Positions 12,959 through 58,893 of a DNA stretch of 64,000 nt are shown one piece after another (positions within the stretch are counted from its first letter, which is position 1; the number at the start of each line of letters is the position of its first letter). This DNA is from Candidatus Izemoplasma sp. Lineage in GTDB: Bacteria; Bacillota_I; Bacilli_A; Izemoplasmatales; Izemoplasmataceae. Below the pieces are notes generated by a model. It saw nothing but the letters and a program-made list of their open reading frames with translations. It had not been told where the DNA came from and ran no database searches. The DNA is taken from contig SLOP01000009.1 of assembly GCA_007132465.1 (NCBI GenBank), positions 1-64,000 on the forward strand, given 5' to 3'. Position numbers and translations under genes: made by a program.

Positions 12959-13007
12959 GGACCTGAAATGCTTAACTGACTTTTACTGACTAGAATGGAG
13001 TGTGAGC

Positions 13008-17500: not shown

Positions 17501-17960
17501 GCACAGACGGGTTGGTAGGATCGGGGGTTTGGACGTTATGACGCAAGTTTAGTTCTCTCAAAAGCGGCAAGTCAAACAACGCCTCCACGTTAGCGTCCTC
17601 AAGGTTGATGATGGCGTTATCCCTAAGGATTAATACCTCAAGTTTTTCAAGCGACACCAGCGGCGCGAGATCGTTGATGCGATTGCCTTCTAAGTTCAAC
17701 ACCCGAACGTTACGCAAGGCATCAATGCCTTCTAAACTCACGATGTCGTAATACGCGCCTTCAAGGGTACTAATGCGCGCGACTTGCGACGCCAACAAGT
17801 CGCCCTCCGACACGTTGATCGTGTCACGGACGGCTTGTTCGAGGCCGGGGTCGTCAAACGTCACGGTCTCCCACGACCCGCGAAGGGCCACGTAACCGAC
17901 CACGGCGATAATCCCTGTCAACACCAAGGTCAAACTCAGCACCACGGCACGACGAATCAT
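14526..17960 (-). CDS. Large exported LRR / lamin-tail / CotH-kinase protein
   Basis: 1144 residues. An N-terminal signal or anchor helix (about 5-27) leads to leucine-rich repeats of the internalin type (about 60-330; repeated LxxLxxLxLxxNxIxDLxPL). Next is a lamin-tail domain (about 355-450; VLINEFMASNG, DWIELYNP), a chitobiase-type beta domain (about 515-560; IYYTLDGSTPT), then a CotH-type kinase fold (about 640-1040) with RRILLRNGG, FINGEYFGIRNIRDRVD and RWLVNDLDASFG, the last carrying the metal-binding acidic residues. The C-terminus has one InlB-like beta repeat (GYVFSHWEDGSG). CotH proteins phosphorylate secreted partners. The gene overlaps the VTC gene by ATGA and ends the operon DUF4956-VTC-CotH. 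Its substrate is unknown; I see no spore-coat CotB/CotG gene here. Confidence 0.85.
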   Translation of the reverse strand: MIRRAVVLSLTLVLTGIIAVVGYVALRGSWETVTFDDPGLEQAVRDTINVSEGDLLASQVARISTLEGAYYDIVSLEGIDALRNVRVLNLEGNRINDLAPLVSLEKLEVLILRDNAIINLEDANVEALFDLPLLRELNLRHNVQTPDPTNPSVRIRLTDISLLAEMTNLETLIVRDNLITDLAPLGSLSKLRQLDISLNPIQDRTLSDLAPLTQLKHLNIRQTGINDIAVVAGFTQLEYLNIHSNIDLIDLAPIASLVELRTLIMRNVPMRDNLQHFTHLVNLSRLNIRNTGTTDFTVLANLMSQGALQDNPAQNIFASVDLRDNPVTFDDGAQGYEVLRPYWHNISERQPRYLPGSVLINEFMASNGSTIADGDGDYEDWIELYNPNAFPIDLSGYYLTDDAEDLTQWTFPAGSHIGAGEHKLIFASGKNTTDSLGYLHTNFSIAREGEPLMLVYTDGETVVDAVDATFVPRDMSYGRYPDGTANWEYFDANHTSPGEANHNPGRLPHEFTPEFSHAGGFYTESFFLMLEAEANATIYYTLDGSTPTTDSDVYDGAITITHQMIDPPTEGDIIIIQRGVEPADPRPPLSRIKTTSYLTRWNLPAEPYFKATTVRAMAVDDAGNQSRVVTHTYFVDDDMPTRYTFPILSIVTDMEHLFDYETGIYVPGANYDDSIDEADDNRTGNYFERGPEWERPVHLEYYSHQGDLLFSQNAGMRVHGGLSRKYAFKSYRFYARYDYDDVNAFNVPFFDDKDMNSFRRILLRNGGQAYNRTFFGEAAMHDIFRPLPLDGQHNQPVIVFINGEYFGIRNIRDRVDRFYFEAHHGVNPDNVTILDGNGRLDDGSSAGIAHYRYSRDYVLDNNMAINAHYDYASTLIDMENLATYYAMQLYVINTDWPQNNVRYWRLNTDRFYPDAPYGHDGRWRWLVNDLDASFGVSFGGVDPSMESFERMTGDDFRTGELFVSLLANESFRTYFINVFADMTNTVFNPERVHDILDGYVSLYEVEMPEHIARYGYPSSMSLWRSRVNRMYDFASGRPDYARAQLIDYFNLDGAFTLTLKTDLERGSLKVNTVWFNSDSEYLPAADTWEGMYYNHVPVTLVAQPKEGYVFSHWEDGSGTVLSEDSTFVLNTEHDTEVVAVFVTP

Positions 17961-18715
17961 GTCGAATCACCTCGCAGGCGGGCGCGTTTGCGCGGCACTT
18001 CGACGCGTGGGGTGACCATGTTCGGTCTGACCACTTCAATGCCTTGGACGTATTTGGAGTTGGTGACGGGTTTTAAATCATATAATTTCACGATTCGACG
18101 CAACCAGTTGGGTTGCTTCATCGTGCACTTAATTTCGAGGATGATGTTTTTCGGGCGGTGGTACTTAAACAAAAAGTCATTGGAAAAAAGCGTTGTTGCT
18201 CTGGCGCTTGAGACGCCGTGATCGAACGTGACGCGAATGTCTTTTTCAAGCCGCCCACGGTACCCTTCACGGCGGTATTGAACGATGATTTGCGGCGCCA
18301 AATCGCGCACGCGGCGAAGCCGCTCAAACTCATCGACGACGGCGTCGTTTTCGGTCGGAAACCGCCCTGTTTTAAGGAAAACGTTGTAATCCTCCAGCGG
18401 GATGAGCGAGCTATACTTGATCATGGCGCTTCCACGCTTGGTTTTCAACTCGATGCTTACCACCTCGGCGTCGTCCGGCGTCGTGGCATATGCGCGCACG
18501 CGCAACTTGATGCGGCCGTATTGGCCATCGTTGCGTTCGTGAAATGCGCGCAGATCGTGGGTATCGTAATACACGCTTCGAACCAAATACGTGCCCATCT
18601 TTTCTTTGGCCGTGTAATCGTCACGACGAAGAAACGGTCGCATGGCATGCTTAACCGCGTAGTAATTACTCGGGCTCAAAATGTATTTGTATTCAAATCG
18701 TGAAGAGTATCTCAT
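17957..18715 (-). CDS. VTC-domain protein (polyphosphate polymerase-like)
   Basis: 252 residues. Conserved blocks of the VTC tunnel fold are in order: RFEYKYILS at the N-terminus, VRSVYYDTHDLRAFHER, RIKLRVRAY, SIELKTKRGS, YRREGYRGR, DIRVTFDH and ILEIKCTMK near the C-terminus. The basic and acidic residues line the tunnel in which yeast Vtc4 makes polyphosphate. Whether bacterial members make polyphosphate is not settled. Start ATG 18715 lies just beyond the stop of the DUF4956 gene (18717) with no clear ribosome binding site, so translation is probably coupled. The reading frame can be extended upstream to 18790, but those residues are out-of-frame DUF4956 sequence. It overlaps the CotH gene by 4 bases. 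Confidence 0.87.
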   Translation of the reverse strand: MRYSSRFEYKYILSPSNYYAVKHAMRPFLRRDDYTAKEKMGTYLVRSVYYDTHDLRAFHERNDGQYGRIKLRVRAYATTPDDAEVVSIELKTKRGSAMIKYSSLIPLEDYNVFLKTGRFPTENDAVVDEFERLRRVRDLAPQIIVQYRREGYRGRLEKDIRVTFDHGVSSARATTLFSNDFLFKYHRPKNIILEIKCTMKQPNWLRRIVKLYDLKPVTNSKYVQGIEVVRPNMVTPRVEVPRKRARLRGDST

Positions 18716-18716
18716 G

Positions 18717-19391
18717 CTACATCGGCAGCGCCAGCTGCGGTGAGAGGAGCGAGACTTTGTCGACGCTTGCTTGCGCGCGGACGCGCTCAATCATCGCATT
18801 GACTTCGTCGAGGTATGCTTTATCAAAGCGCAGTTCGTAGATGTTTTCAAAACGCTCGCCTTCGGTTTCTTTGGAGCGGATTTGAATGTTGACTTTGTCC
18901 GCCCGGTCTTTGAGTTCGCTTTCATCAAAGCCTTTTTCACCTGACACAACTAAAATATATTCAGCGTGGAGTTGGCGGCCGTACTTGATGAGGTAAAACA
19001 CGGTCACCAGCAACCCTAGGATGATGGTTGCAAACACCGCCATCGTCCAGTTTTGTGTGCCTGTACCGAGGCCAATCGCAATGACCCAAAACAAATACAC
19101 CATGTCGCGTGTGTCTTTGATGGGGGTACGAAAACGAATGATTGAGAGCGAGCCAACCAATCCCAAACTCAACACCAAATCGCCTTGGATAAAAAACATC
19201 ACGAGCGTCACAATCGGCGCTAAGATGGCTAGGGTTGAAAGGAATGAACTCTCGTAGTTCAAGCCGCGATGCGTGTAACGGTAAATCACCGCAATCACAA
19301 GCCCGAGGACTATTGCCAGCAACATCGATACGATGAAGCGCACGATGACCTCGTTGGAAATCAACACAATTTCAATAATATGGTCCCACAT
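18717..19391 (-). CDS. DUF4956 membrane protein
   Basis: 224 residues. About four membrane helices in the first 140 residues include the signature LVGSLSIIRFRTPIKDTRDMVYLF, which defines DUF4956. The C-terminal 80 residues form a soluble alpha/beta domain (EYILVVSGEKGFDE, NIYELRFDKAYLDEVNAMIE) resembling a small ferredoxin-like sensor fold. It is the first gene of the DUF4956-VTC-CotH operon. The start ATG 19391 follows AAGGTGA. The constant partnership with VTC proteins suggests it forms the membrane part of that enzyme, perhaps moving or anchoring its product. This is inference from gene order. Confidence 0.82.
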   Translation of the reverse strand: MWDHIIEIVLISNEVIVRFIVSMLLAIVLGLVIAVIYRYTHRGLNYESSFLSTLAILAPIVTLVMFFIQGDLVLSLGLVGSLSIIRFRTPIKDTRDMVYLFWVIAIGLGTGTQNWTMAVFATIILGLLVTVFYLIKYGRQLHAEYILVVSGEKGFDESELKDRADKVNIQIRSKETEGERFENIYELRFDKAYLDEVNAMIERVRAQASVDKVSLLSPQLALPM

Positions 19392-19496: not shown

Positions 19497-21110
19497 TCAC
19501 AACGTGATGGTCTCGTTGATGAGGGATGGGTCAAGGTCGCGGTGTGAAATCACAAACACCGTCTTGCCTTCAAGCGCCGCCACATTGGCTAGCACCTTCG
19601 CTTCGGTCTCGGCATCGAGCGCGCTCGTTGCCTCATCAAACAACAAAACCGATGCCTCACGACATAAACTCCTGGCGATGGCGAGGCGTTGAATCTGTCC
19701 TTCGCTAAAGCCTTTCCCGCGTTCTTTGAGTTCGGTATCATAGCCGTGTTCAAGCGCAAGAATATCGTCGTGAATCGCCGCGGCCTTGGCCGCGGTGATG
19801 ATGAGGTCTTCATCGGCGTCGGTGTTGTAGCGGATGGCGTCTTTGATTGTGCCACTTTGTACCATCAACCCTTGGGGAACATAGCTGAAGCAACGCCGTG
19901 TGGCCGGGCCCACGCGATGCGAATCCCCGTCGATGATAATGTCTACCCTGCCCTCGGTCGGCTCCACCAACCCAAGCAACACCTTAAACAAGGTCGTCTT
20001 CCCAATGCCTGAAGCGCCTTTGATGTGCACCATGTCACCGCGTCTGGCGGTAAAATCGAGGTTGTTAAGGACGTTTCCCTCACCGTAGGTGAAGGTTATG
20101 CCCTGGCCTACCAGTGCGTCAAACGTGCCTTCTGCACGTTGAGCCACCACATCTTTGGGTGCCGCTTCGAGCTTCATCAAACGTTCGGCGCTCGCGGTCA
20201 TGGCGTACACCTTTGGCACCAAAACGGACAAACCGGCAAACGGTGATTGCATGAACTCAACCAACTGAATGATTGCGACCAAACTCCCAAAGGTCAAGGC
20301 GCCAACGCCAATGCGGTACGCCCCGTAGATGATTGCAAAGGCGTATGCCGCCGAGAAAAAACCAGACAACGCCGTCCCCGCAAACACGCTCACACGGTGT
20401 TTGGCCATGCGGGCATGAAAAAAGTTTTGTTGTTGGGTTTCGACAACGGCTTCGGTGTGGGTTTCCGCTTCATATGCTTTAATCACCGTCGTGTGATCCA
20501 AACTTTCTTGTAGCGTGCCACGAAGCGAGGCTTCAGCGTCTTGCATGGCGTGGTGTCTTTGCTTAATCGCGTTACGCACGAGCACGCTCCCCATGAGAAG
20601 CGTCAGGCCAAAGGCCAACATAATCAGCGCAAACGTCGTGTCAAGGATAAAGAGGAGCGCAAAAGCCAACCCAAAGCGTAAAAATAAAAACACAAACCTC
20701 GGCAGCAATTCCACCATCCCCTCGGCCACAGTGCGCACGTCGCTTTGAAGGTGGTTCATCAGTTTGCCGGTGTGGGCGTTTTCAAGCGCAGTGTGCGTCT
20801 GACCAAGCACCTCGTGGAACATGCTCGCTTTAAGGTGTTTATCGGTTTTGGCTCGGTAGTACCCTAACAGATAATGATTTAAGGCGCGCACCACCATCTG
20901 AAACGCAAGCACGCCGATGACGGCAATCGCAAAGCGGATAAACAAGGTGCTTTCACCATCTTGGGCGGCGTCGATGACAAGTTTGGTGGCGTAGGCAAAA
21001 AGCACCGCCGTCACGCTCATGAGCGCCCCGAGGATAACCAACAATACAATCGGTGCTTTTAGGTGAGCGTTGCGTGTCATGAGCCAACGCCCGGTTGTGG
21101 GTTGTGCCAT
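19497..21110 (-). CDS. ABC exporter, fused membrane and ATPase domains
   Basis: 537 residues. Six membrane helices occupy about residues 18-300, then the ATPase domain: Walker A KGASGIGKTTLF near 360, Q-loop FSYVPQG, signature FSEGQIQRLAIARS (SEGQ rather than SGGQ), Walker B SVLLFDEATSALD, and H-loop VFVISHRD. It is a type IV exporter half-transporter, which works as a dimer. There is no peptidase C39 domain, so it does not cut leader peptides itself. Start ATG 21110 is preferred over the in-frame GTG 21119 on ribosome-site spacing. It is divergent, 123 bases away, from the radical SAM operon and is the natural candidate to export that pathway's product, but this is inference from position. 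Confidence 0.85.
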   Translation of the reverse strand: MAQPTTGRWLMTRNAHLKAPIVLLVILGALMSVTAVLFAYATKLVIDAAQDGESTLFIRFAIAVIGVLAFQMVVRALNHYLLGYYRAKTDKHLKASMFHEVLGQTHTALENAHTGKLMNHLQSDVRTVAEGMVELLPRFVFLFLRFGLAFALLFILDTTFALIMLAFGLTLLMGSVLVRNAIKQRHHAMQDAEASLRGTLQESLDHTTVIKAYEAETHTEAVVETQQQNFFHARMAKHRVSVFAGTALSGFFSAAYAFAIIYGAYRIGVGALTFGSLVAIIQLVEFMQSPFAGLSVLVPKVYAMTASAERLMKLEAAPKDVVAQRAEGTFDALVGQGITFTYGEGNVLNNLDFTARRGDMVHIKGASGIGKTTLFKVLLGLVEPTEGRVDIIIDGDSHRVGPATRRCFSYVPQGLMVQSGTIKDAIRYNTDADEDLIITAAKAAAIHDDILALEHGYDTELKERGKGFSEGQIQRLAIARSLCREASVLLFDEATSALDAETEAKVLANVAALEGKTVFVISHRDLDPSLINETITL

Positions 21111-21200
21111 GGAAATCACCGCCTCGTCTTTTATTTTATCACACCCACGCGCGCTTCGAAACGTTTTCTATTAAGACCCGTGGCGCGCGCGGGTAAAAAA

Positions 21201-21209
21201 TGCTATAAT
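21201..21209 (+). promoter_or_regulatory. Extended -10 promoter of the radical SAM/PqqD operon
   Basis: TGC-TATAAT at 21201-21209, 24 bases before the start codon; no good -35. It is identical in form to the pcm promoter. Confidence 0.6.
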
Positions 21210-21233
21210 GGGTAAACAAAGTAGGTGACAACG

Positions 21234-22241
21234 GTGAAATACCACGAGCTACGATCAAAAATAATTCGCCTCGCCGCCAAGGAAAGAACCCCTGTGCTTG
21301 GCGAATTCGAGTTGACCGCACGCTGCAATTTGGCGTGCGCAATGTGTTATGTTGTCGACCAACAGGCCCACGACTTAACCACCGAAACATGGATTGACAT
21401 TTTTGACAGCGCCGTTGACGCCGGGTTGATGTATGCTGTCTTGACCGGTGGAGAAGTCTTTATGCGTGATGATTTCGCCATCCTTTACAATCGCTTATAC
21501 GACATGGGTGTGCGCATCACCGTATTTACAAACGGCACCCACGTGCCTGAACATATCATTGACGTGTTTAAAAAACGCCCGCCTGAAAGCGTCACGTTGA
21601 CGGTGTATGGCGCATCGGACAAAACCTATGAACTCGTGACCGGTAAAAAAGGTGCCTTTTCACGCTTGCTGAACTCCGTGGGTTTGTTAAGCGTCGAGGA
21701 AATACCGTTCACGTTGCGAACTTTGCCGCTTAAACCTATCTACGATGAGCTCAATTACGTTATCGAGTATGCCAAAGCCTGCGAGGTTCCGCTCTTTTTT
21801 GCTTCCTACCTCGGCCCCACCCGTCAAGGTAACTTCGACCACGCCACGATGCGTCTGACGCCGGAAGAACTCATCGATTTTTCCAACCGTATTCGTCATG
21901 CTTTCGGTTTTGATGCCCAACAAAGCCTATCCGCTGACACCAAAACAACCACCTGCGCCGCGTTGAAAAGCGCTTATTTCATTAACTACGAAGGGTTGAT
22001 GACGCCGTGTGCCATGGCAACGAAGCCAGCCCGTAGCGTCTTAGACGATGCCATTTTGCCTGTGTTCCAATCCCTGTCAACCATGTTTTCGGATGTTGAA
22101 GCCTACCACGGCTGTGCATCGTGCGATCTTAAGGAAGCTTGCATGCAATGTTATGCCCGGCGTCTGCTTGAAGGCAACGCCGAAGCGTGCGCGCCTTACC
22201 TTAAAGCCCACGCCACCCTGAAAGGACGTGTTAAATCGTGA
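21234..22241 (+). CDS. Radical SAM protein with SPASM-type C-terminus
   Basis: 335 residues. The SAM cluster motif is C31-x3-C35-x2-C38 (CNLACAMC). The C-terminal region carries seven further cysteines (TTTCAALK, MTPCAMA, GCASCDLKEACMQCYARR, AEACAPY) as in SPASM domains that hold auxiliary iron-sulfur clusters. Such enzymes mostly modify peptides (sactipeptides, PQQ and mycofactocin precursors). The start is taken as GTG 21234, 5 bases after AGGTGA; GTG 21225 is also in frame. It opens a run of five overlapping genes, the next four being HPr-kinase-like, PqqD-like, S24/S26 peptidase-like and nucleotidyltransferase, so a peptide or protein substrate bound by the PqqD-like partner is likely. 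No precursor gene is visible. Confidence 0.85.
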   Translation: MKYHELRSKIIRLAAKERTPVLGEFELTARCNLACAMCYVVDQQAHDLTTETWIDIFDSAVDAGLMYAVLTGGEVFMRDDFAILYNRLYDMGVRITVFTNGTHVPEHIIDVFKKRPPESVTLTVYGASDKTYELVTGKKGAFSRLLNSVGLLSVEEIPFTLRTLPLKPIYDELNYVIEYAKACEVPLFFASYLGPTRQGNFDHATMRLTPEELIDFSNRIRHAFGFDAQQSLSADTKTTTCAALKSAYFINYEGLMTPCAMATKPARSVLDDAILPVFQSLSTMFSDVEAYHGCASCDLKEACMQCYARRLLEGNAEACAPYLKAHATLKGRVKS

Positions 22242-23104
22242 AGAAATACGACATCGCAGGGATAAAAATAGGGTTTACCTACCAATACCGCAGCTACTTC
22301 GAAGACAACATTGAACCTTACCAGATCGACGACGATTCGCCGATTGACACCACCATCACCGTCACCACGGTTAACCACATCGAGCCGCCAGTTTCTAAAC
22401 CCTTATACACCTACAAAAACCGTCATATCCATCACGAAGACGGCTATTTAATTCGCGCCGTGTACGACGACGACGGGTCAGTGAAGATCTTGATGAAGCA
22501 CACCGACGACTATCAAACCAATGACATCTTATTATCGCGCAAACTCAAAAATCGGCTTTCCGAACTCGAATACGTTCTCAGCGGGTTGATGTTCATGGAA
22601 ATCGCCGTATACCATGGTATGTTTCCGCTTCACGCCTCAGCGGTGGGCCACAAGGGCGAAGCGGTGCTTTTCGCCGGCACGAGTGGCACCGGCAAGTCGA
22701 CGCACGCCAACTACTGGCGCCAACTGCTTGATGATGTCACCATTCTCAACGATGACAAGCCTCTTATCTACCAACGCAACAGCCGCTTCTACGCTGCGGG
22801 TACGCCATGGTCGGGAAAAGATCTGGTGAATAAAAATTTAGCGTTGCCGGTAAAAGCGATCGTGTTTTTAGAGAAAGCGAAAGACAACGCTTTTGAAACC
22901 TTACCCAAAGAAACAAAATTAAAAGAATTGCTTAGAAACTGCGTGCGCCCCGGTAACGAAGCGCTCATGAGTAACGTCCTCAGCATCATCGATGCACTCA
23001 TCGACGACGTGCCCATGGGCAAACTCTATGCTCGTCACGATGCCTCAAGCGTCACGTGCGTTTATAAAAAACTCTTCTTGGAGGCCAACGGATGCTCAAA
23101 ATAA
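22238..23104 (+). CDS. HPr-kinase-like P-loop kinase
   Basis: 288 residues. The second half carries LHASAV, then the P-loop AGTSGTGKSTHANYW (G147 to T154), the acidic LNDDKPLIY and GTPWSGKD, which match the HPr kinase/phosphorylase catalytic core. The N-terminal 120 residues are different from true HprK and resemble the N-terminal part of kinases found with PqqD proteins in exosortase-linked and lasso-peptide clusters. In the paeninodin pathway such a kinase phosphorylates a serine of the peptide. It begins at GTG 22238, sharing GTGA with the stop of the radical SAM gene, and overlaps the PqqD gene by 13 bases. A direct role in sugar regulation is unlikely given the neighbours. Confidence 0.82.
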   Translation: MKKYDIAGIKIGFTYQYRSYFEDNIEPYQIDDDSPIDTTITVTTVNHIEPPVSKPLYTYKNRHIHHEDGYLIRAVYDDDGSVKILMKHTDDYQTNDILLSRKLKNRLSELEYVLSGLMFMEIAVYHGMFPLHASAVGHKGEAVLFAGTSGTGKSTHANYWRQLLDDVTILNDDKPLIYQRNSRFYAAGTPWSGKDLVNKNLALPVKAIVFLEKAKDNAFETLPKETKLKELLRNCVRPGNEALMSNVLSIIDALIDDVPMGKLYARHDASSVTCVYKKLFLEANGCSK

Positions 23105-23364
23105 AACCCGGCTACGTGCTTCGCACTGTCGCCAACCAACACATCGTCGTCCCCACGGGCGAAGCCAGCGTGCGTTTTAACGGTGTCATCACCTTAAACG
23201 ACTCAGGCAAAATGCTCTTTGAAGCCTTGAAAAAAGGCGCCACCCAGGCTGATCTGATCACCACCTTAACCAACGCGTATGATGTCGATGAGGCGGAAGC
23301 CAAAAAAGACATCGATGCCTTCTTAAAAACCCTCGAGCAGAAAGATGTCCTTGAACAACGCTAA
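23092..23364 (+). CDS. PqqD-like peptide-binding (RRE) protein
   Basis: 90 residues. The order basic N-terminus, beta strands (GYVLRTVANQHIVVPTG, RFNGVITLNDSG), then three helices with KMLFEALKKGATQADLI and DIDAFLKTLEQKDVLE is the winged-helix layout of PqqD, the RiPP recognition element that presents a peptide leader to a modifying enzyme. ATG 23092 follows GGAGG at a spacing of 7 and overlaps the kinase gene by 13 bases. In this operon it probably presents the substrate to the radical SAM enzyme, the kinase or both. It is a free-standing domain, not fused to the radical SAM protein. Confidence 0.8.
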   Translation: MLKIKPGYVLRTVANQHIVVPTGEASVRFNGVITLNDSGKMLFEALKKGATQADLITTLTNAYDVDEAEAKKDIDAFLKTLEQKDVLEQR

Positions 23365-23791
23365 GTCACGTCGCATCGCCTCGGGTGACCTGGCTCAAAT
23401 CATTGATGAACACATCACGGCCGGCCATGCGTTTACCTTGCTTGTTAAAGGCAACAGCATGCGCCCTTTTTACACGCACAACCAAACGCGTGTCACCTTG
23501 GTCGCGCCGCTTCCACTGAAACGAGGCGATGTCTGCCTGTTTACCTACCGAGACAAGGTTTTTCTCCACCGTCTCATCAACCAGCAAAACGACACGTACA
23601 CCTTCCAAGGCGACGCGCTCATCGCTAAAGAAACCGTGTCGCTGGATGCCATCATCGCCAAGGTATCGCATTACAACCACCATGGCAAAACCATCGACGC
23701 CACAGCGCATTATCATCGCCTTAAGGTTCGCCTGTGGCGTTTGTGCAGACCATTTTATCATCGCTTAAAACGTCGGCGGGTGAAACGATGA
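23345..23791 (+). CDS. S24/S26 signal-peptidase-like protein, Ser-His type
   Basis: 148 residues. The block LLVKGNSMRPFYTHN contains the catalytic Ser of signal peptidase I-like enzymes, and LKRGDVCLFTYRDKVFLHRLI contains the second catalytic position, here His rather than Lys, as in SipW/endoplasmic-reticulum-type peptidases. FQGDAL is the third conserved block. There is no N-terminal membrane helix; the last 25 residues are strongly basic (RLKVRLWRLCRPFYHRLKRR). It could cut the leader of the modified peptide, or have lost activity. The start ATG 23345 overlaps the PqqD-like gene by 20 bases and has only a weak ribosome site, so coupling is likely; TTG 23351 is an alternative. Confidence 0.72.
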   Translation: MSLNNAKSRRIASGDLAQIIDEHITAGHAFTLLVKGNSMRPFYTHNQTRVTLVAPLPLKRGDVCLFTYRDKVFLHRLINQQNDTYTFQGDALIAKETVSLDAIIAKVSHYNHHGKTIDATAHYHRLKVRLWRLCRPFYHRLKRRRVKR

Positions 23792-24960
23792 ACGCCGTTC
23801 AACACAGGCTATGCGAGCTGGTGAAAGCCACCCTCAACAACACCTCCTACACGGTGCCCATCGATGATATACACCGCGTGTACAGCGCGGCACGCGATGC
23901 CGAACTATCAGGCATGGTGTTTGGTGTGTTAGACCATGCAAGTATCCCCCCCGATGTCTATGCGCGTTTTCGGAAGGACGCGCTTTTGTTTCAAGCACAT
24001 CATGAGAAGCAGATTTACCTCATCGACCGTATCAAAACGGTGTTCGATAAAGCCAACATCCCCCATATCTTTTTAAAAGGTGCCGTGTTAAAGGCACGCT
24101 ACCCTGAGCCCTACATGCGTTCGATGGGCGACATCGATGTGCTCGTCAACAAGACGGATCACCACGCCGCCTTAACACAGCTTAAACGCATCGGCTTTAC
24201 CATCACCGGTGATTCACGGGCTCACACCAATTTATTATCTCCAGAGAAAATGCGGGTGGAGTTGCATCCTGAATTGTACAGTTCTATCCACCCAAAATAC
24301 GACGGACTGTTTCATGACGTGTGGTCGCACGCGGTCCTTGTAGACAAGCAAACACACCGTTTCACGCCTGATTTTGAACTCGCCTATTTAACCTACCACA
24401 CCATCAAGCATTTTTATGGCACCGGCGTGGGACTGCGCACGGTGTTAGACATCGGCTTATACGCTAAACACCATGAAAACACCATTGATTCAGCCGCTTT
24501 CCGTTCGTTCCTCAAAGCACATCATCTGCTTACCGTGTTCATGAACATGCTGGAGCTGAGCGAGCGGTGTTTTAGTCTTTCGGCGTTTGATAATTTGCGC
24601 AAAGACCACACCATGACCGATACGCTTTATGACGGCATCATCAAGCATATTTTTGCAAGCGGTGTCCACGGCAAAAGCGCTTCTTACAACCCCTTTATCG
24701 GCCGCGTTGGCGCGGCGCGATTGAAAAAACAAGGCCGGCTGCGCTTTGCGTTGACACTGTTGTTCCCATCCTACGCTGACATGAAAGCCACGCGCGGATG
24801 GCTCAGAAGTCCACTTCTGCTGCCATTTGCCTGGGCGGGACGGTTAATGAGATTGTTGTTTGGGCGGACAAAACGCTCGTTCAAAAAGATTAAGCACCTC
24901 TGCTTCAAACGCGCAAAAGCAGACGAAACCTCAGCGATGTTCCGCGAGTTGGGTTTATAA
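23788..24960 (+). CDS. Nucleotidyltransferase-fold protein (NTP_transf_5-like)
   Basis: 390 residues. Near residue 100 it has IPHIFLKGAVLKARYP followed by RSMGDIDVLVNK, the GS/GD-x-D-hydrophobic-D-hydrophobic pattern of the pol-beta nucleotidyltransferase superfamily, specifically the NTP_transf_5 type often encoded with PqqD and HPr-kinase-like proteins. The rest is helical (TYHTIKHFYGTGVGLRTVLDIG) with a basic C-terminal tail. The start is ATG 23788, sharing ATGA with the stop of the preceding gene; an upstream in-frame ATG at 23734 would overlap 58 bases. It ends the operon. In paeninodin-type clusters a related gene has no proven reaction, so the role here is unknown. Confidence 0.78.
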   Translation: MNAVQHRLCELVKATLNNTSYTVPIDDIHRVYSAARDAELSGMVFGVLDHASIPPDVYARFRKDALLFQAHHEKQIYLIDRIKTVFDKANIPHIFLKGAVLKARYPEPYMRSMGDIDVLVNKTDHHAALTQLKRIGFTITGDSRAHTNLLSPEKMRVELHPELYSSIHPKYDGLFHDVWSHAVLVDKQTHRFTPDFELAYLTYHTIKHFYGTGVGLRTVLDIGLYAKHHENTIDSAAFRSFLKAHHLLTVFMNMLELSERCFSLSAFDNLRKDHTMTDTLYDGIIKHIFASGVHGKSASYNPFIGRVGAARLKKQGRLRFALTLLFPSYADMKATRGWLRSPLLLPFAWAGRLMRLLFGRTKRSFKKIKHLCFKRAKADETSAMFRELGL

Positions 24961-25037
24961 AGACACGGCAAACTCTGTATAACACACTCACCGCTGTGGC
25001 ATGAAGCTTCTTACCGGTAATCTCAATCAACTCATTA

Positions 25038-25043
25038 TATAAT
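25038..25043 (+). promoter_or_regulatory. -10 element before the metallo-beta-lactamase exoprotein gene
   Basis: TATAAT at 25038-25043 in an A/T-rich context, 47 bases before the start codon; no clear -35 at 17 bases. Confidence 0.5.
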
Positions 25044-25090
25044 GGTAGTCTATCGCATTACACACCTCACACCCTTGGAGCCGTGATGAC

Positions 25091-28000
25091 ATGAAAAAAC
25101 TGATGACCCTTTGCCTATCGCTGTTACTGCTGTTCGGCGTCGCTTCCACCTTGGAGGCGAACGTTCCTTTTGATACGATCGATGTGACCATAACACCGTT
25201 GTTCGATGACGATAACGGAGACCCTATTCATCTCAGCACGCTCGATTATGGAGGTGTTATGCGTCTCGATACCGAACTGACTTCGCTCACGGGCTACACG
25301 TTCGCTTTTTGGGTTGTCAACGGTTCGCTGCGCCTTGATTATGCGATGGACCATGCGTTCACCTTAGTCAACGACATGGACATTCAAGCGGTCTTTAGTC
25401 CGGATGACAAGCACGCGGTGTTGTTTATGGACACGAATGGGAAGCTGCTTGACTATGCTTACGTTCACGATGGTGAAGACGCCGCCTTTACTGGAGACTT
25501 GCCGTCTAAACCCGGCATGCAGGTGGCTGATCCGATGTGGGACCAATCGCTCAACATCATCCAACAAGACACCGTCTTTTTAATCCAATACACCCTCACC
25601 GAAGACGCTGAGAATGCTGAGTTTAATGTCAGCGTCATTAATGGCATCGGCGATGGCGTCTATCCATATAACGAGTTTGTGACCGTGGTGGCTGATGAGG
25701 CCCCAATTGGCCAACACTTCACCCACTGGGAAGTTGACGACCGCGTTGTCTCTTATGAATCCGAGTATACCTTTACGCCGTTTAGTGATACCACCATCAG
25801 AGCGGTTTATGATGATGAGCCTTTGCTGCCGATGCCCTTAATCACCATATCCGACGCGTTAACCATCCGCAGTAATCACCATACCTTTAAAGGCCAGTTT
25901 TATGTGCCTGATCATTTTGAACTCATCGAGTATGGCATGCTTGTGTCTGCATCCGGCGACAACCTGCTCTTAGGCAACGAAGACGTCACGGTTAAGCGCA
26001 GTCAAAAACACACGCCGCAGTCTCAAGAATGGCTGATGAGTTTTGAGGATACGCTCTTTGCCGAGGCGGCTCGTGCCTACCTCATCGTTAAAAACACCCA
26101 AGGCGAACTCATGGCCTTTTATTCGGGTGATGAAGCCATGGGCGATGCGATGACCGAGACGTTTGCTTCGTTTAGTGGAAGTGGCACGTCCTATGTCACT
26201 GAAACGTTCACTGGTGACACTGGTGTCGAATGGACCGTCACCGAAACCAGAAAAAATCTTGATACGTATGCCATTGACGATGGTGGGATGATTGTGCGTG
26301 TGCCCGGCACGGTGTATGGCATTATCCCCGGTGGGTTCAATTACATGTCACTCGATCTTCGCATGGCTTTTACCAGCGGTTCCCCTGAACAACGCACCAT
26401 TGAGGTTTACGCCGATGGCGCGTTGATAGGCAGCCATACCTTAACGACAACCAATCAGGTTGAAACCCTCGTCATTGACACCGTCGCGTTCACAGGCGAT
26501 GTCGCCCTTGAATTACGTGCTGTTGGCACCTCCGGGCGTCAAATCACCATCAACAACCTCGCCTGGTCACAAAGCGCGACGTCTACAGGCCACTTCGTTC
26601 AACTCACCAGCGACGAAGACGTCAATCTCACCGTTGACCAAGCCGGCCCCTTTTATCAGCACGGCACCTCGCTGATTGTCGACGCCGAGCCCATGCATGG
26701 GCATGCGGTTACCTGGGTCGATGCCCTCACGGGGCAACCCGTACATGTGGGTGAAAGTTACCGCTTCACCATCACCCAAAACCGGCACTTGCGTGCCCTT
26801 TACACGCCGCTCGATGATGATTATACCCTGACCCTAACCAGCAACCTTCCTGAAGCCGACGTATCCGTGAGGCCAGAAACCGGACTTATCCACGGCACGG
26901 AAATAACGTTGCATGCTCCCGCGGTCGCGGGGCATCGTTTTGAGTATTTTAAAGACCTCGCTTCCGGCATCATCTTCACCAACCAAGCTACGTTCTCCTT
27001 TTACCTCCAAGACGATCATGATTTTCTGGCTTTCTACCTTGAAGAGGGATATTACGATCTTTATCTCTCGACCAACTTAGCCGGAGCCGTAATTGAACGA
27101 GACGTGGAGGGGCCTTACACGATCGATGACACGGTTGAGTTACATGCCCATAGTGTGGAAGGGTATCGCTTTGTCCACTGGTATGATCTGTTTAACGATA
27201 GCGTGCTTGCGAGCGATGACACCTATGTCCATACCATCACCCAAAGCCGTCATGTGGTGGCGGTTTATGAGGGTGTGGCGTCAGAAACGGTTTATGAGAC
27301 CGGTTTTGAAGATGCCACCAAAGGGGCGTACGCCGCTGCTGATGTTGAGATTTCAGATAAACTGTGGCGTTTAGACGATGCCCTTATTGGTTCTTTAGCC
27401 AACGATCAAAAACATGGTTTACAAAGCGTAAGAATTCGTAACGGACACGCGAGAACGCTGTTCGCTGTCGATGCGCTTGATGCCGTCTCCTTCTATTACG
27501 GAAAGTATGGTAATGATGCTAACTCTACCCTGAGTATGAAAGCGTCCGTCGATGGTGAAACCTGGACCACCATCAGCACGTACGATGCCACAGGCAGTTT
27601 CCAACAAGCCACGCTCAACGCAAGCGATGTGTATGGCGCACTTAATGTCGATGTTTCCACGCCGATTTACCTTATGTGGGATGCTTCGCAAAACGATGAA
27701 CGCATCAACATCGACGATGTCGTCATCACTCACAACGTCACAACCGCTCTTTCCATTGACGCGCTCACATTCATCGACGCGATGACGACGCTTGGTCACG
27801 ATGCGACAGACGTGGTGATTCACTACATCGATATTGGCACCGCAGGCGACGCGATGTTGATTCAAATCGGCGACATCGACCTCTTAGTCGATGCGGGACT
27901 AAACCAAGCCACCAGCATCGACAACTTGCTGGATTTTCTCGCAGAACACATCACCGATGGAACCATTGAATACATTATACCGTCCCATGCGCATGCCGAT

Positions 28001-28753
28001 CATATCGGCGGCTATCCGGATGTGTTTGACGCCTATGACATTGGCACAATTTTCAACTATTGTACCGTCGGCACTTCCGCCATCGCCCTGGAGTTTGATG
28101 ATCTCGTCAACGCCCATATGGCTGAGGGCGGCACGGTTTATCGCGTGTGTGAGTTGTTTGATGAGGATGACATCTTTATCTACGAACTGTTTGATAATGT
28201 CTTCTTGGAATTTTATAACACGGGCGATCTCGCGAGTTCCGACCTGAACGAATCCAGTGTCGTCTTCACGCTTGATGCAATGGGCACCCGCGCACTGTTT
28301 AACGGCGATGCCGGCGACGATCAAGAAGCCGTTTACGGACCGCTTGCCGGACATATCGACGTTCTCAAGATGGGCCATCACGGCTCGCGCACCTCCACCT
28401 CCAGCGCCTTGGTGGAAACCATCGACCCAAGCACGGTTATTGTAAACGTGAACAACCTTCTTGGCACACCTTACGGACATCCGCATTACGACGCCGTGGC
28501 AAATGTCTATGCGTATTCCGATCAAATCCCCGTCTACGTCATTGCCGGCGGCCCAGACAGCATGGGCTTTTACCATCAACGCAACGGCACGATCACGGTG
28601 TCCATTGATGAACACGGCTACAGCGTCTCAAGCGAGTACTATGGCGATAACCCCATAGAGCTATCCAAAACCGATTATTGGAAAGACGACACCAACGCGT
28701 ACCGTCACTTAGGCTATGCATACGCTGAAGACACCGGCATCGTCGCGGATTAG
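25091..28753 (+). CDS. Secreted multidomain protein with ComEC-like metallo-beta-lactamase domain
   Basis: 1220 residues. A signal peptide (MKKLMTLCLSLLLLFGVAST, cut near LEA) is followed by InlB/Listeria-type beta repeats (GYTFAFWVVNG, THWEVDD), a jelly-roll-like domain (about 370-495), three more beta repeats (FEYFKDL, FVHWYDL), and a TGFEDATKGAY beta-sandwich module (about 735-880). The C-terminal 300 residues form a metallo-beta-lactamase domain: HYIDIGTAGDAMLIQIG, the zinc motif SHAHADHIGG (H966, H968, D970, H971), FNGDAG and MGHHGSRTS (H1096, H1097). This resembles the ComEC/Rec2 C-terminal nuclease-type domain. The N-terminal 180 residues are duplicated in the next gene, which carries an endonuclease I domain instead. 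TTGGAG precedes ATG 25091 by 9 bases. An extracellular DNase or phosphodiesterase is likely; the substrate is not proven. Confidence 0.82.
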   Translation: MKKLMTLCLSLLLLFGVASTLEANVPFDTIDVTITPLFDDDNGDPIHLSTLDYGGVMRLDTELTSLTGYTFAFWVVNGSLRLDYAMDHAFTLVNDMDIQAVFSPDDKHAVLFMDTNGKLLDYAYVHDGEDAAFTGDLPSKPGMQVADPMWDQSLNIIQQDTVFLIQYTLTEDAENAEFNVSVINGIGDGVYPYNEFVTVVADEAPIGQHFTHWEVDDRVVSYESEYTFTPFSDTTIRAVYDDEPLLPMPLITISDALTIRSNHHTFKGQFYVPDHFELIEYGMLVSASGDNLLLGNEDVTVKRSQKHTPQSQEWLMSFEDTLFAEAARAYLIVKNTQGELMAFYSGDEAMGDAMTETFASFSGSGTSYVTETFTGDTGVEWTVTETRKNLDTYAIDDGGMIVRVPGTVYGIIPGGFNYMSLDLRMAFTSGSPEQRTIEVYADGALIGSHTLTTTNQVETLVIDTVAFTGDVALELRAVGTSGRQITINNLAWSQSATSTGHFVQLTSDEDVNLTVDQAGPFYQHGTSLIVDAEPMHGHAVTWVDALTGQPVHVGESYRFTITQNRHLRALYTPLDDDYTLTLTSNLPEADVSVRPETGLIHGTEITLHAPAVAGHRFEYFKDLASGIIFTNQATFSFYLQDDHDFLAFYLEEGYYDLYLSTNLAGAVIERDVEGPYTIDDTVELHAHSVEGYRFVHWYDLFNDSVLASDDTYVHTITQSRHVVAVYEGVASETVYETGFEDATKGAYAAADVEISDKLWRLDDALIGSLANDQKHGLQSVRIRNGHARTLFAVDALDAVSFYYGKYGNDANSTLSMKASVDGETWTTISTYDATGSFQQATLNASDVYGALNVDVSTPIYLMWDASQNDERINIDDVVITHNVTTALSIDALTFIDAMTTLGHDATDVVIHYIDIGTAGDAMLIQIGDIDLLVDAGLNQATSIDNLLDFLAEHITDGTIEYIIPSHAHADHIGGYPDVFDAYDIGTIFNYCTVGTSAIALEFDDLVNAHMAEGGTVYRVCELFDEDDIFIYELFDNVFLEFYNTGDLASSDLNESSVVFTLDAMGTRALFNGDAGDDQEAVYGPLAGHIDVLKMGHHGSRTSTSSALVETIDPSTVIVNVNNLLGTPYGHPHYDAVANVYAYSDQIPVYVIAGGPDSMGFYHQRNGTITVSIDEHGYSVSSEYYGDNPIELSKTDYWKDDTNAYRHLGYAYAEDTGIVAD

Positions 28754-28803: not shown

Positions 28804-28865
28804 TTAACATGGTCTACGCAGGCGTCACACGTTGGTGTGATGTCGTGAATTATAAGGTTACTTGC

Positions 28866-28894
28866 TTTTACTCCCAACGGATATGGTGTATAAT
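28866..28894 (+). promoter_or_regulatory. Promoter of the endonuclease I exoprotein gene
   Basis: TTTTAC (28866-28871), 17 bases, TATAAT (28889-28894). Upstream, TCACAC-GTTG-GTGTGA (28825-28840) is an inverted repeat that could be an operator. Confidence 0.55.
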
Positions 28895-28933
28895 CATACG
28901 TACTCATCGCATCCACATGGGAGTTGTGATCTG

Positions 28934-31159
28934 ATGAAAAAACGGATGATGGTGCTGTTGACATTGCTGCTTACTCTTGGTGTCGTTTCGACGTTGGAAG
29001 CGACCGTGTCTTTTAGCACGGTCGATGTCACGTGGACCGCGCTGTTTGATGAACACAACGTCAATCCCGTTGAGGTAAAAACCATTAACGCGGGCCATCG
29101 CTTGCAACTGGCGTCGTCCCTCGCGTCGCTTGAAGGCTATGCGTTTTCGTTTTGGGTTGTCAACGGGGTGGTGGACCCCACGCGTCGATTGGACCATGAA
29201 CTTTCCATCACGCAAGACACACACCTTCAGGCTGTGTTCAGTCCGGCGGATAAACACGCCGCGGTGTTTGTCGATGATGAGGGGGCGTTGCTTGATTATG
29301 CTTATCTCAGCGATGGTGACAACGCGGTCTTTACCGGGGATGTGCCTGCTAAACCTGGGTATACGTTAGCTGATCCGATGTGGGACAATCCCTTGGATAG
29401 CATCCAACAAGACACGCTCTTCACCCTGCAATACGACGCCATTGACGAGGGCGACTATACCCTCGATGTGGATGCCAACATCGCCGGTGAGCCAACCGGC
29501 GTGAGTGAAGAAGGCCCTTATGAACCGAACCAACCCCTTACCTTAACCGCCGAATCCGTCACAGGTTATGACTTCCTTTACTGGCAAGATATGGCCACCC
29601 TGCATGCGCTTGGCACCTCCCCTGTGCTTGAATACACCGTGCATAAAGATGCGCACGTGCGCGCCATCTATCAAGCTGAAGCCACCACCGCTTATGCCAC
29701 CGGGTTTGAGTCGGCCGCCAAGTCGTCGTACGCCATGGGCAGTGTGACGGTCGATGGCGAATCGTGGTTTTTCTATGAAGCGTTGATTGGCTCGCTTTCG
29801 GGTGACCGAAAAACCGGGTCGCAAAGCGTTCGGATTCGAGCAGGGGGCTTCATCCATACCGAATTTTCCGTGCAAAACCCGACGCGTTTATCGTTTGATT
29901 ACGGCACTTACGGCACCGACATCGAGTTGACGTTCCATGTTCAATTTTCCACCAACGCGCTGTCATGGCATACCTTGGACACCGTCATTTCGCCGGCGGG
30001 GTCCGGACTCCATCACTTTAGCTACGATATCGATTTGATGACCCTGCGAGAGACGCACGGCATTGATGAAAACACCGAGATGTATTTCCGCCTTCATCAC
30101 GTGACCCGGATTCCTTCCAGCGGCACGTCAAATGAACGGTTAAACATTGACAACGTACACATAGACACGTACACTGATTTTGTAGGCTTTCCGCTGTTGG
30201 ACACCGAAAGCGACGTCCTTGATTTCAGCTTTGATCGTGCGTTGTTGGCTGTGTACAGTTTGCACGACACCTGGTCGCCAGCGGGATGCGAAGCGTTGGA
30301 CGCTGTGCTCGGTGCACTCACCTGTTCGGTCGATGGTGTTGTCGACACCACCACACGCGGTGTCTATACCATCACCTACACCGCCACCGACCACCACGGC
30401 ACCATGGTGACGTATCAGATTGACAAAACTGTCTTAAACGATGCGTCGCTCCTAGACATGGTGCTTGACGATTACGACGGGTATTACGCAAACCTTGAGG
30501 GACTGTTCGGCGAAGCCTTATTGTTGTCGATGCGCGCGCTGCTTTGGGATGATGTCTTAATGCCGACCTACGATGACATTCGCGATATTCTACAAATCAG
30601 TGACGAAGACCCGTCGAACCCCGACAACGTCTTGCAAATTTATACTGGCCAAAGCGTGATTGCTGATTGGGACTCGCGTCAGTGGGACCGCGAGCACATC
30701 TGGCCAAATTCTCGCCTTGGTGTGATGCGTGCCGCCGGCACGATGCGACACGCTGGCACCGATGCGCACAACTTAAGGCCTATCAACGCAAGCATCAACA
30801 TCGCCCGCGGAAACAAATACTTTGACACAAACACAACCACCGATGGCTACTACCCAGACGATGACCACGGCAACGTTGCGCGCACCTACTTTTACCTAGC
30901 CGTCAAATACGATTGGCTGACGTTGAGTGATGCGTTGCCACCACCCGATTCAACCTACGCGGCTGACGGGGCTTATCAAGGGTATCTGAGCGTGCTCATC
31001 ACCTGGCATTTCGAAGACAGTGTGAGCGCCTTTGAACAACACCGTAACGACGTGATTTACAGTTACCAAAACAACCGCAACCCATTCATCGATTACCCGC
31101 ACTTAGTTGAACTGATTTGGTTCGACCATGACAACATCGAAGAGACACCTGAACCTTGA
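28934..31159 (+). CDS. Secreted multidomain endonuclease I (NucM/EndA-type)
   Basis: 741 residues. The signal peptide MKKRMMVLLTLLLTLGVVST and the next 160 residues closely follow the preceding gene product (shared FWVVNG, AVFSPxDKHA, LLDYAY, PMWD, IQQDT). One InlB-like repeat (YDFLYWQDM) and the TGFESAAKSSY beta-sandwich module (about 255-420) come next, then a short Ig-like domain (about 425-500). The C-terminal 240 residues are endonuclease I: DREHIWPNSRLG with the metal/catalytic His H588, DAHNLRP, and NRNPFIDYP. Such enzymes cut DNA non-specifically. Start ATG 28934 has GGGAG at a spacing of about 10; longer starts in the same frame lack a signal peptide. The next gene overlaps its end region, so the two are co-transcribed. 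An exported DNase is well supported. Confidence 0.88.
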   Translation: MKKRMMVLLTLLLTLGVVSTLEATVSFSTVDVTWTALFDEHNVNPVEVKTINAGHRLQLASSLASLEGYAFSFWVVNGVVDPTRRLDHELSITQDTHLQAVFSPADKHAAVFVDDEGALLDYAYLSDGDNAVFTGDVPAKPGYTLADPMWDNPLDSIQQDTLFTLQYDAIDEGDYTLDVDANIAGEPTGVSEEGPYEPNQPLTLTAESVTGYDFLYWQDMATLHALGTSPVLEYTVHKDAHVRAIYQAEATTAYATGFESAAKSSYAMGSVTVDGESWFFYEALIGSLSGDRKTGSQSVRIRAGGFIHTEFSVQNPTRLSFDYGTYGTDIELTFHVQFSTNALSWHTLDTVISPAGSGLHHFSYDIDLMTLRETHGIDENTEMYFRLHHVTRIPSSGTSNERLNIDNVHIDTYTDFVGFPLLDTESDVLDFSFDRALLAVYSLHDTWSPAGCEALDAVLGALTCSVDGVVDTTTRGVYTITYTATDHHGTMVTYQIDKTVLNDASLLDMVLDDYDGYYANLEGLFGEALLLSMRALLWDDVLMPTYDDIRDILQISDEDPSNPDNVLQIYTGQSVIADWDSRQWDREHIWPNSRLGVMRAAGTMRHAGTDAHNLRPINASINIARGNKYFDTNTTTDGYYPDDDHGNVARTYFYLAVKYDWLTLSDALPPPDSTYAADGAYQGYLSVLITWHFEDSVSAFEQHRNDVIYSYQNNRNPFIDYPHLVELIWFDHDNIEETPEP

Positions 31160-31176
31160 CCACCAGGAGGATAACC

Positions 31177-32721
31177 ATGAAATTATTGATGATGCTCGCC
31201 GTTTTCGCCTTCGCTTTAGCAGGGTGCCGCAGCGGTGAAAAAGCGCAACTTGACGCCCCCCTAAACATCCGCTACCAAGACGACACCATCGCCTGGGACG
31301 CTGTCGCCGAAGCGACGCGCTACTTGGTGCGCATTGAAGGTGTTGAGACAGAGCGGGTCACAACCACAACCTACGATGTGCGTCATCTGGATGATGGCAC
31401 CTACACCGTCCAAGTACGGGCACAACGCGGCGACGATCAATCGCCTTATAGCGACCCCTTGACCTTTACGATTGAACGCGACACCGGCCTTGATTTAACG
31501 ACACCTACCAACCTTCAATATGCCGATGATGACTTAACGTGGGATGCTGTCGATGAAGCGACGACGTACGTCGTTGAGGTTGACGACGTGGAAACCGCGG
31601 TGGTTGAATCCCCAACCTACAGCGTCCTTCACCTCGATAACGGAACCTACACCGTCCGCGTCCGGGCGCAAGCCGGCGACAGCCAATCGCCTTACAGTGA
31701 TCCTTTCACGTTCACGATTGAGCGCGAGGTTAGCGTGGATCTCGACGCGCCAGAAAACCTCCGCTTCGCAGACGACATGGTGATGTGGGATGCGGTTGAT
31801 GGGGCGACACAGTACGTGCTCACCATCGACGATATGACATCGGTCGTGGTTAACAGCCCCTCATACAGCGTAGACCACCTTACAAACGGAACCTACACCG
31901 TCCGCGTCCGGGCCCAAACCGGCGATAAACAATCGCCTTACAGCGATACACTAACGTTTACCATCGATCGCGACATCGTCCCCCCCCTCAATTTGACCTT
32001 TGATGGTGACACGCTCACGTGGACCCACACTGGCGCCGACGCCTTTCACGTCTACTTGAACGATCAACTTCATGACACCGTTGCCACCACATCCATCGAC
32101 CTAGCCGACGTGTTTGCGGACATCGACGCAGTGGGATCCACCCGCATCCATGTGACCGCCCACATCGGTGATGATGCCTCAGGAGCGTCGATGACGATGA
32201 TTTACCGGGTCGCCCGCTTCAGACATGACCTTGAAAGCACCGTCGATCCGCTCATTGCCTTGCGTTATGCAGCCAGCCCCATCGCGTTTACGCGAAACGG
32301 CACCGGCGCTTCCCTTTCGCACGTGATCGTCGATGGCACCTTGCTGACACTCAATCACGATGCGCTCAACACCTTAGGCTTAGGGGAACACGAGCTTATC
32401 GTTCAAACCACGCGTGAGCGCATCCGTGTCGATCTCTCCGTGGTCGATGAAGGCAAACCCTATGTCGCTGGCGACATCAACCATTACTACCGCGACGGCG
32501 AAGACGTGGTCGTGACCATCGAGTTGTTCGACGCCGACATCACCATCCAACTTGATGCGGAGCATTACAGTTTTGACGGTGCGGTGTTAACCGTCTCAAG
32601 CGCCTACTTTGATGGTCGCCTATCCAACACTCCTGACGCCAGCAACCTGCTCTTTTCGTTTTATTTCGAGTATGATAATACCACCGTGTTCTCCTTTGTG
32701 AACGTCCGTGTCATCGAATAG
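31177..32721 (+). CDS. Lipoprotein with tandem fibronectin-III-like repeats
   Basis: 514 residues. A lipobox signal (MKLLMMLAVFAFALAGC, Cys17) is followed by three close repeats of about 80 residues, each beginning LDAPxNLxY-ADDxxxWDAV and ending GTYTVRVRAQxGDxQSPYSDPxTFTI, the fibronectin-III pattern, and a fourth diverged one (PLNLTFDGDTLTWTHTGAD). The remaining 200 residues are beta-rich with no motif I know. It is anchored on the outer face of the membrane. AGGAGG precedes ATG 31177 by 6 bases, and the start is only 17 bases after the endonuclease stop. It may hold the secreted nuclease or bind carbohydrate; there is no enzymatic motif. Confidence 0.82.
   Translation: MKLLMMLAVFAFALAGCRSGEKAQLDAPLNIRYQDDTIAWDAVAEATRYLVRIEGVETERVTTTTYDVRHLDDGTYTVQVRAQRGDDQSPYSDPLTFTIERDTGLDLTTPTNLQYADDDLTWDAVDEATTYVVEVDDVETAVVESPTYSVLHLDNGTYTVRVRAQAGDSQSPYSDPFTFTIEREVSVDLDAPENLRFADDMVMWDAVDGATQYVLTIDDMTSVVVNSPSYSVDHLTNGTYTVRVRAQTGDKQSPYSDTLTFTIDRDIVPPLNLTFDGDTLTWTHTGADAFHVYLNDQLHDTVATTSIDLADVFADIDAVGSTRIHVTAHIGDDASGASMTMIYRVARFRHDLESTVDPLIALRYAASPIAFTRNGTGASLSHVIVDGTLLTLNHDALNTLGLGEHELIVQTTRERIRVDLSVVDEGKPYVAGDINHYYRDGEDVVVTIELFDADITIQLDAEHYSFDGAVLTVSSAYFDGRLSNTPDASNLLFSFYFEYDNTTVFSFVNVRVIE
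31249..31971 (+). repeat. Three tandem Fn3-coding repeats
   Basis: Three units of roughly 240 bases inside the Fn3 lipoprotein gene. The ends of units 2 and 3 are nearly identical in DNA (for example ACCTACACCGTCCGCGTCCG at about 31650 and 31890), more alike than protein selection needs, which points to recent duplication or gene conversion. Unit edges are approximate. Confidence 0.7.
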
Positions 32722-33915: not shown

Positions 33916-33927
33916 GGCCCTCACCCC

Positions 33928-58877: not shown

Positions 58878-58893
58878 GGTTATCCCCCTTTCT

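Follow-up and report, generated by a model that had tools for sequence, protein, structure and literature searches.

A kinase, PqqD, peptidase and nucleotidyltransferase cassette of 'Candidatus Izemoplasma' and a candidate precursor peptide family paired with a large secreted protein

The window analysed here, a 64,000-nucleotide stretch of contig SLOP01000009.1 of a 'Candidatus Izemoplasma' sp. (a wall-less sediment bacterium; source genome G000, assembly of 1.43 Mb, completeness 99%), carries a five-gene cassette which, with a divergent ABC exporter, had been read from the sequence as a peptide-modification pathway. On re-examination, the six genes kept the coordinates of this original prediction. 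On the plus strand, the cassette codes successively for a radical S-adenosylmethionine (rSAM)/SPASM enzyme (21225..22241), an HPr-kinase-like putative peptide kinase (22238..23104), a stand-alone PqqD-like protein (23092..23364), a soluble S24/S26 peptidase (hereafter S26; 23345..23791) and an NTP_transf_5 nucleotidyltransferase-like protein (NTP5; 23788..24960). The genes overlap by 4, 13 and 20 bases, and again by 4 bases if NTP5 begins at ATG 23788, its most likely start, which gives an ATGA overlap with the peptidase gene. The exporter lies on the minus strand (19497..21119; 540 residues, likely start ATG 21110) and combines a transmembrane (TM) and a nucleotide-binding domain; Pfam finds ABC_membrane and ABC_tran and no C39 domain, in line with the predicted lack of a C39 peptidase.

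Domain calls were made with Pfam and NCBIfam models and their cut-offs. For the rSAM enzyme (Pfam Radical_SAM, 3e-15), a GTG start at 21234 is likely, as it fits the numbering of the CxxxCxxC motif (C31/C35/C38), which is invariant among 16 homologues; the seven C-terminal cysteines reported earlier are all present, but only six of them (C241, C259, C297, C303, C306 and C319) are invariant in this set, C294 being the exception. The predicted HPr-kinase core holds at the level of motifs, the P-loop SGTGKST and the NDDKPL motif being invariant or nearly so among relatives, but the HprK-like NCBIfam models match below their cut-offs only (ScmC at 38.8 bits, HprK_rel_B and HprK_rel_A more weakly), and the match of the kinase profile to the solved HPr kinase 1jb1 is weak (E=0.35). 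The kinase is 72% identical to its counterpart in locus L014, which has the same cassette. The PqqD-like protein, a putative leader-binding RRE (recognition element of ribosomally synthesised and post-translationally modified peptides, RiPPs), passes the Pfam PqqD cut-off (9e-15), and NTP5 is matched at 4.2e-43, both as had been proposed.

Concerning the peptidase, the Pfam Peptidase_S24 score just exceeds the cut-off (23.6 vs. 23.3 bits), and the proposed Ser-His pair (Ser38, His75) is invariant in 23 homologues, as are G36, M39, P41, R76, G89 and D90. The catalytic Ser thus lies in a GxSMxP motif and is accompanied by its base within an S24/S26 fold. The AlphaFold2 model (pLDDT 93) has the SpsB signal peptidase and LexA/UmuD as best PDB matches, with a modest TM-score of ~0.47. 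No TM-like stretch was found in the protein (maximal 19-residue hydropathy 0.98).

The order of the cassette genes is kept across the Izemoplasmatales and in other families of the class. In the source genus, rSAM-HPrK-PqqD-S26-NTP5 is also present in G034, G035 and G036 (the first two cut at a contig end), and the same order recurs in about ten genomes of f2, the second family of the order (f1 being that of the source genome). In loci L021, L023, L050, L052 and L057, only the rSAM gene is absent from an otherwise intact cassette, and the NTP5 gene is retained in the relatives' cassettes. An ABC gene adjoins the cassette in f1, as it does in a number of further families of the class (L177, L179, L180, L182); none was seen in the f2 loci, to which the search within the f2 genomes was limited. 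In G050, rSAM and kinase are fused into a single 627-residue protein, and in L179, L180 and L182 PqqD is fused to the C-terminus of the kinase. That the five genes stay together in related genomes, as a common pathway would have it, is therefore borne out by linkage and even by fusion. These natural fusions argue strongly that the rSAM enzyme, the kinase and PqqD would work on one substrate. G063 has an incomplete cassette, with rSAM, S26 and NTP5 together and no recognised kinase or PqqD.

Scanning the genome contigs with the single kinase sequence returned four loci only. In genus g3 (G007, G008), the PqqD-S26-NTP5-ABC genes stand without the kinase homologue, which lies elsewhere (L024:10007-10846, L025:11251-12084) and has conserved neighbours of another kind. 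Elsewhere in the class, L184, L185 and L186 have Kinase-PqqD-S26-ABC-NTP5 cassettes and no precursor-N350 pair (both defined below); short YxxP-type peptides of another kind lie near two of them (L184:17472-17639, L185:14679-14852), and these cassettes are apparently sister RiPP systems. A further relative, from outside the class, is the Oscillospiraceae locus L016:7735-10489, with ABC genes, a 60-residue YVEP-type small open reading frame (ORF), a 458-residue protein, PqqD and an HPrK-like kinase.

A conserved small gene with a leader, sought beside homologous clusters as the original prediction had advised, came out of an unbiased clustering of every small ORF in these loci: besides PqqD and a PqqD antisense frame, a single family emerged, referred to here as A5. 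Its members have about 40-50 residues, with the consensus M...YExPxIEVIEFELEESIAxSGDFGSxTxCGEExF, that is a leader YExPxIEVIEFELExSIAxS followed by a short core. Leaders of the W/Y/LxxP type are known to be recognised by RREs (PMC12710340). Among the nine relatives' precursors submitted to Pfam and NCBIfam, no significant match was found, one of them weakly matching StsA (E=0.061). Over 90 genomes of the order Izemoplasmatales, which also form the sample for the two co-occurrence tests below, a clean gap separates 30 matches at <=1e-11 from the next one, at 1e-3.

The absence of a visible precursor, noted originally, holds for the window, where short ORFs scanned for the motif and the gap 24961-25090 ahead of the gene at 25091, read in three frames, yielded none, but not for the genome: one copy lies elsewhere, on contig C40 (G000:C40:472-594, minus strand, VEKPAYDPPAITIIEFDIHDSIASSMDHGPNVSCSEAVFE, E=2.5e-12). 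This gene starts with GTG behind a GGAGG-type ribosome site, and it overlaps the gene that follows through an ATGA. The GC content of the contig (0.483 vs. 0.515 in the window) is compatible with the same genome, and is no proof of linkage. The peptide-pathway reading withstands the refutation proposed along with it, since a conserved small gene is found in homologous clusters and the cassette genes stay linked, and it is corrected in that the precursor is in trans here and adjacent in many relatives.

As for its association with the enzymes, the precursor is present in 19/21 genomes with the cassette vs. 5/69 without it (Fisher P=5e-13). A second association concerns the core Cys, which is found in 15/17 rSAM-positive and 0/11 rSAM-negative genomes whose cassette is known. 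About five to six changes are required to explain the distribution of the rSAM/Cys labels on the kinase tree; the cleanest case is G078, in which both rSAM and Cys were lost, nested in a rSAM+/Cys+ clade with support 100/100. A strict rule of Cys if and only if rSAM was rejected, G034 and G035 keeping rSAM without a core Cys. The A5 peptide is very probably the substrate of the cassette.

The gene directly 3' of the precursor could be read for 28 of the 30 copies in the order, the other two lying at contig ends. Its start lies within about -4 to +15 nt of the precursor stop, and its product carries a signal peptide; in 26 of these 28 cases it contains a conserved N-terminal domain of ~350 residues, named N350 here. 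Within the 90 genomes, the figures for precursor and N350 are 21/24 vs. 2/66 (P=3e-15), and outside the order an N350 gene comes next in 20/27 precursor copies. The domain is predicted to be all-beta (pLDDT 86.6); naming its fold from the PDB was rejected, the top matches being partial (TM ~0.2). The C-terminal domains of N350 proteins include LTD, Big_2, Flg_new, metallo-beta-lactamase and endonuclease I, and in many loci endonuclease I and lipoprotein genes follow.

Several families of the class show the full block ABC | HPrK-PqqD-S26-NTP5-precursor-N350-EndoI-lipoprotein. The window follows the same gene order, with the precursor missing, which places the true right border at ~32721 and gives a block (19497 to ~32721) of the exporter, the five-gene cassette, two N350 proteins and a lipoprotein. 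The first N350 protein (25091..28753, plus strand) was assigned by N350 homology and combines a signal peptide, N350 and a metallo-beta-lactamase domain (Pfam Flg_new_2, Lactamase_B). It is followed on the same strand by a secreted protein with a partial N350 (C43:28931-29689, E=6e-59) and Endonuclease I (28862..31159; Pfam Endonuclease_1 3.4e-24), whose real start is downstream of the listed TTG, and by the lipoprotein lipoX (31156..32721, plus strand; lipobox-like AGC, FN3-like repeats, Pfam fn3). Homologues of lipoX end the same block in L170, L177, L178, L179, L180, L182 and L187, the last having CBM_X2. The extent originally given to the locus therefore missed both the pairing of the precursor with a large secreted protein and the secreted nuclease and lipoprotein genes on the right.

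Since the small ORF lies directly upstream of N350, often with an overlap of 4 bases, it might be a leader-type upstream ORF which only regulates N350 translation. This is scarcely credible: conservation is at the amino-acid rather than the nucleotide level, the identities at the three codon positions (0.69/0.78/0.38) showing that selection acts on the precursor protein (median dN/dS 0.26, 95/325 pairs with usable dS), and the ORF is tied to the cassette and its core Cys to rSAM.

Another reading takes the small ORF as no substrate at all, with the enzymes acting on N350 surface proteins or on a surface glycan, as maybe in the HPr-rel-A/exosortase groups. It would account for N350 genes adjoining cassettes without a local precursor, the window included, and for the position of the cassette among capsule-type genes (Wzz/Wzc-like, 13002-14434; PHP phosphatase, 33208-33924; called by reading the sequence only). 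It is nevertheless highly improbable, given a strongly conserved coding precursor with a YxxP leader and an IA-x-S site, and a core Cys which tracks the rSAM gene; moreover, N350 proteins have Sec-type signal peptides, so that a cytosolic enzyme set would be poorly placed to modify them.

Two further explanations accept the peptide and give it another role. In the first, a free antimicrobial peptide kills neighbours whose DNA is digested for food by secreted nucleases, N350 being merely co-expressed. RiPP gene logic, the ABC exporter and the endonuclease I genes within the block suit this idea, which is all the same rather unlikely, because no immunity gene was recognised at the loci, the exporter is not adjacent in f2, the peptide core is acidic and the precursor is tightly coupled in translation to N350, not to an exporter or immunity gene. 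In the second, the peptide is secreted as a signal (pheromone), which N350 or lipoX proteins would receive or scavenge at the surface; a short processed peptide, an exporter and a surface-partner gene directly 3' of the precursor agree with it, but neither a regulator nor a two-component system was recognised in linkage and the C-terminal domains of N350 are adhesin-like rather than receptor-like, which makes it improbable.

The preferred reading, which we consider probable, is that of a RiPP-type pathway with an extracellular product acting together with a surface/nuclease apparatus. That the mature product works with the N350 protein is somewhat more likely than not. What the sequences show directly is which genes are present, the precursor family, its co-occurrence with the cassette and its pairing with N350.

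Several points weigh against this reading. Genes that the genomes of one order share are not independent observations, and the Fisher P values therefore overstate the associations; gaps in metagenome-assembled genomes (MAGs) deflate the co-occurrence counts and shared ancestry inflates them. Five genomes have a precursor and no detected cassette, four of them (G009, G033, G039, G080) being MAGs 63-91% complete; as the fifth, G043, is 96% complete, it may have lost the enzymes or use a distant set. Conversely, no precursor is seen in G007 and G036, which have the cassette. The rSAM-positive G034 and G035 have Gly at the Cys position, and may use other rSAM chemistry or have a second precursor missing from the assemblies. 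In the source genome, precursor and cassette sit on separate contigs, and the rule that the cassette always adjoins the precursor was rejected, the two being distant in G000, G048 and G063. As for the partner, no PDB fold matches N350 confidently over its full length, many N350 genes have no precursor, so that N350 also works without one beside it, and seven weaker precursor-like copies outside the order, including the weakest matches, lack N350 and may belong to sister systems.

The following sequence of events would fit a RiPP-type pathway, the precursor having an encoded leader and core and co-occurring with modifying enzymes and an RRE/PqqD domain. The PqqD-like protein would bind the leader motif YxxPxI-x-hydrophobic; the kinase would phosphorylate a Ser or Thr of the precursor, and NTP5 could then place a nucleotidyl or sugar group on the phosphate, as with PsmK/PsmN, by which a lasso peptide is phosphorylated and then hexosylated (PMC9266682). 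Where present, the rSAM enzyme may modify the core, most simply by forming a thioether from the core Cys. The cytosolic Ser-His peptidase would cleave after IA-x-S. Type I signal peptidases require small residues at -3/-1, a rule which the IA-x-S site, with its invariant IA, fits. The proposal that the protease stands in for the exporter's missing peptidase is plausible, since the peptidase is soluble and the IA-x-S site fits its class. The ABC protein, where present, would export a product of ~12-18 residues, which outside the cell might work with the N350 protein, whether as a ligand or by being built in as a small modified subunit, in a surface apparatus including, in many loci, endonuclease I and the lipoprotein.

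We would advance only tentatively, as a possibility short of likely, that these loci define a RiPP class of their own, new to the field: its peptide, modified by kinase/NTP5/(rSAM) and trimmed by a signal-peptidase-type enzyme, would be a small structural or prosthetic part of an extracellular surface/nuclease complex, encoded alongside it, which captures and digests DNA. A DNA-capture role is attractive, if hypothetical, extracellular nucleases being an established theme in the Izemoplasmatales (PMC8289736). With the A5 family, an orphan HPrK/PqqD/NTP5/S26 gene set gains a concrete substrate family and a candidate partner. Most RiPPs have been studied as free antibiotics or signals; the A5 system is tied to a large secreted protein, often with nucleases, in organisms that reportedly subsist on extracellular DNA. 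As cassettes without rSAM are common, the thioether may be an optional extra to a central chemistry of phosphate-based tailoring. In the open-licence literature, no description of the precursor-surface-protein partnership was found, nor any paper on SynChlorMet, on an HPr kinase, PqqD and signal peptidase set or, as far as one off-topic match shows, on Izemoplasma RiPPs. The pathway is of RiPP type by gene logic and is set apart by its unusual enzyme set, a precursor family without a model and an unusual partner.

Around the block, the minus-strand genes at 14526-19391 code for a CotH-kinase/LRR/LTD protein, a VTC-domain protein and a DUF4956 membrane protein, none of which was seen beside homologous cassettes. 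A secreted protein at 33931-35712 (minus strand) has an atrophied Ig domain (Pfam: aBig_2 only) and a C-terminal stretch which is thermonuclease-like by eye. At 57492-59766 (minus strand), a MEMO/AMMECR1-like protein lies beside a second radical SAM protein, read from the sequence as an AmmeMemoRadiSam-like pair.

Finally, the cassette was compared with known systems. In the HPr-rel-A/exosortase group, NTP5 is a companion and the HprK-like kinase and PqqD_rel_X models match weakly; membership was rejected at 19.9 of 200 bits (HprK_rel_A) and 20.4 of 35 (PqqD_rel_X), and no exosortase was recognised in the locus. The SynChlorMet (Scm) system likewise brings together an HPrK-like (ScmC), a PqqD-like (ScmD) and an rSAM/SPASM protein (ScmE), and the cassette kinase and rSAM have ScmC and ScmE near the top of their NCBIfam matches. 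Its cassette has two rSAM enzymes, ScmE and ScmF, whereas the present one has a single rSAM, adds the S26 peptidase and NTP5 and has another precursor family; membership was rejected on the scores (ScmC 38.8 of 125 bits, ScmE 69.4 of 400, no ScmD match listed). Phosphorylated lasso peptides (paeninodin, pseudomycoidin) share the HPrK-like kinase, an NTP_transf protein, a PqqD-type B1 and the YxxP leader. Unlike them, the cassette lacks a B2 transglutaminase-like protease and has a Ser-His S26 peptidase instead, and the A5 core has no C-terminal Ser; no Asn-synthetase-like macrolactam cyclase was found in the window locus or recognised in the homologous loci, and lasso membership was rejected on this ground and on the PqqD (B1) scores (38.8 of 70 and 30.1 of 80 bits). 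With sactipeptides and ranthipeptides, the system shares a SPASM rSAM, an RRE and a Cys-containing precursor, although G034/G035 and all rSAM-negative cases lack the Cys, and one precursor weakly matches StsA; it differs by the single core Cys of A5, by an rSAM which is dispensable in many cassettes and by a constant part made of kinase and NTP5. In the maturation of the quinohemoprotein amine dehydrogenase (QHNDH) gamma subunit by QhpC/QhpD/QhpE/QhpF, a small subunit is rSAM-modified, leader-trimmed and ABC-exported, and joins large secreted subunits (PMC7876137), which makes it the closest functional precedent for the proposed action with N350 outside the cell. The likeness lies in a SPASM rSAM, a serine peptidase and an ABC exporter maturing a small leader-bearing protein; the differences are that QhpE is subtilisin-like and QhpD builds three thioethers, and neither heme/quinone dehydrogenase subunits nor QhpG were seen in the window locus. 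QHNDH maturation is thus an analogue of the cassette and its secreted partner, not a relative.

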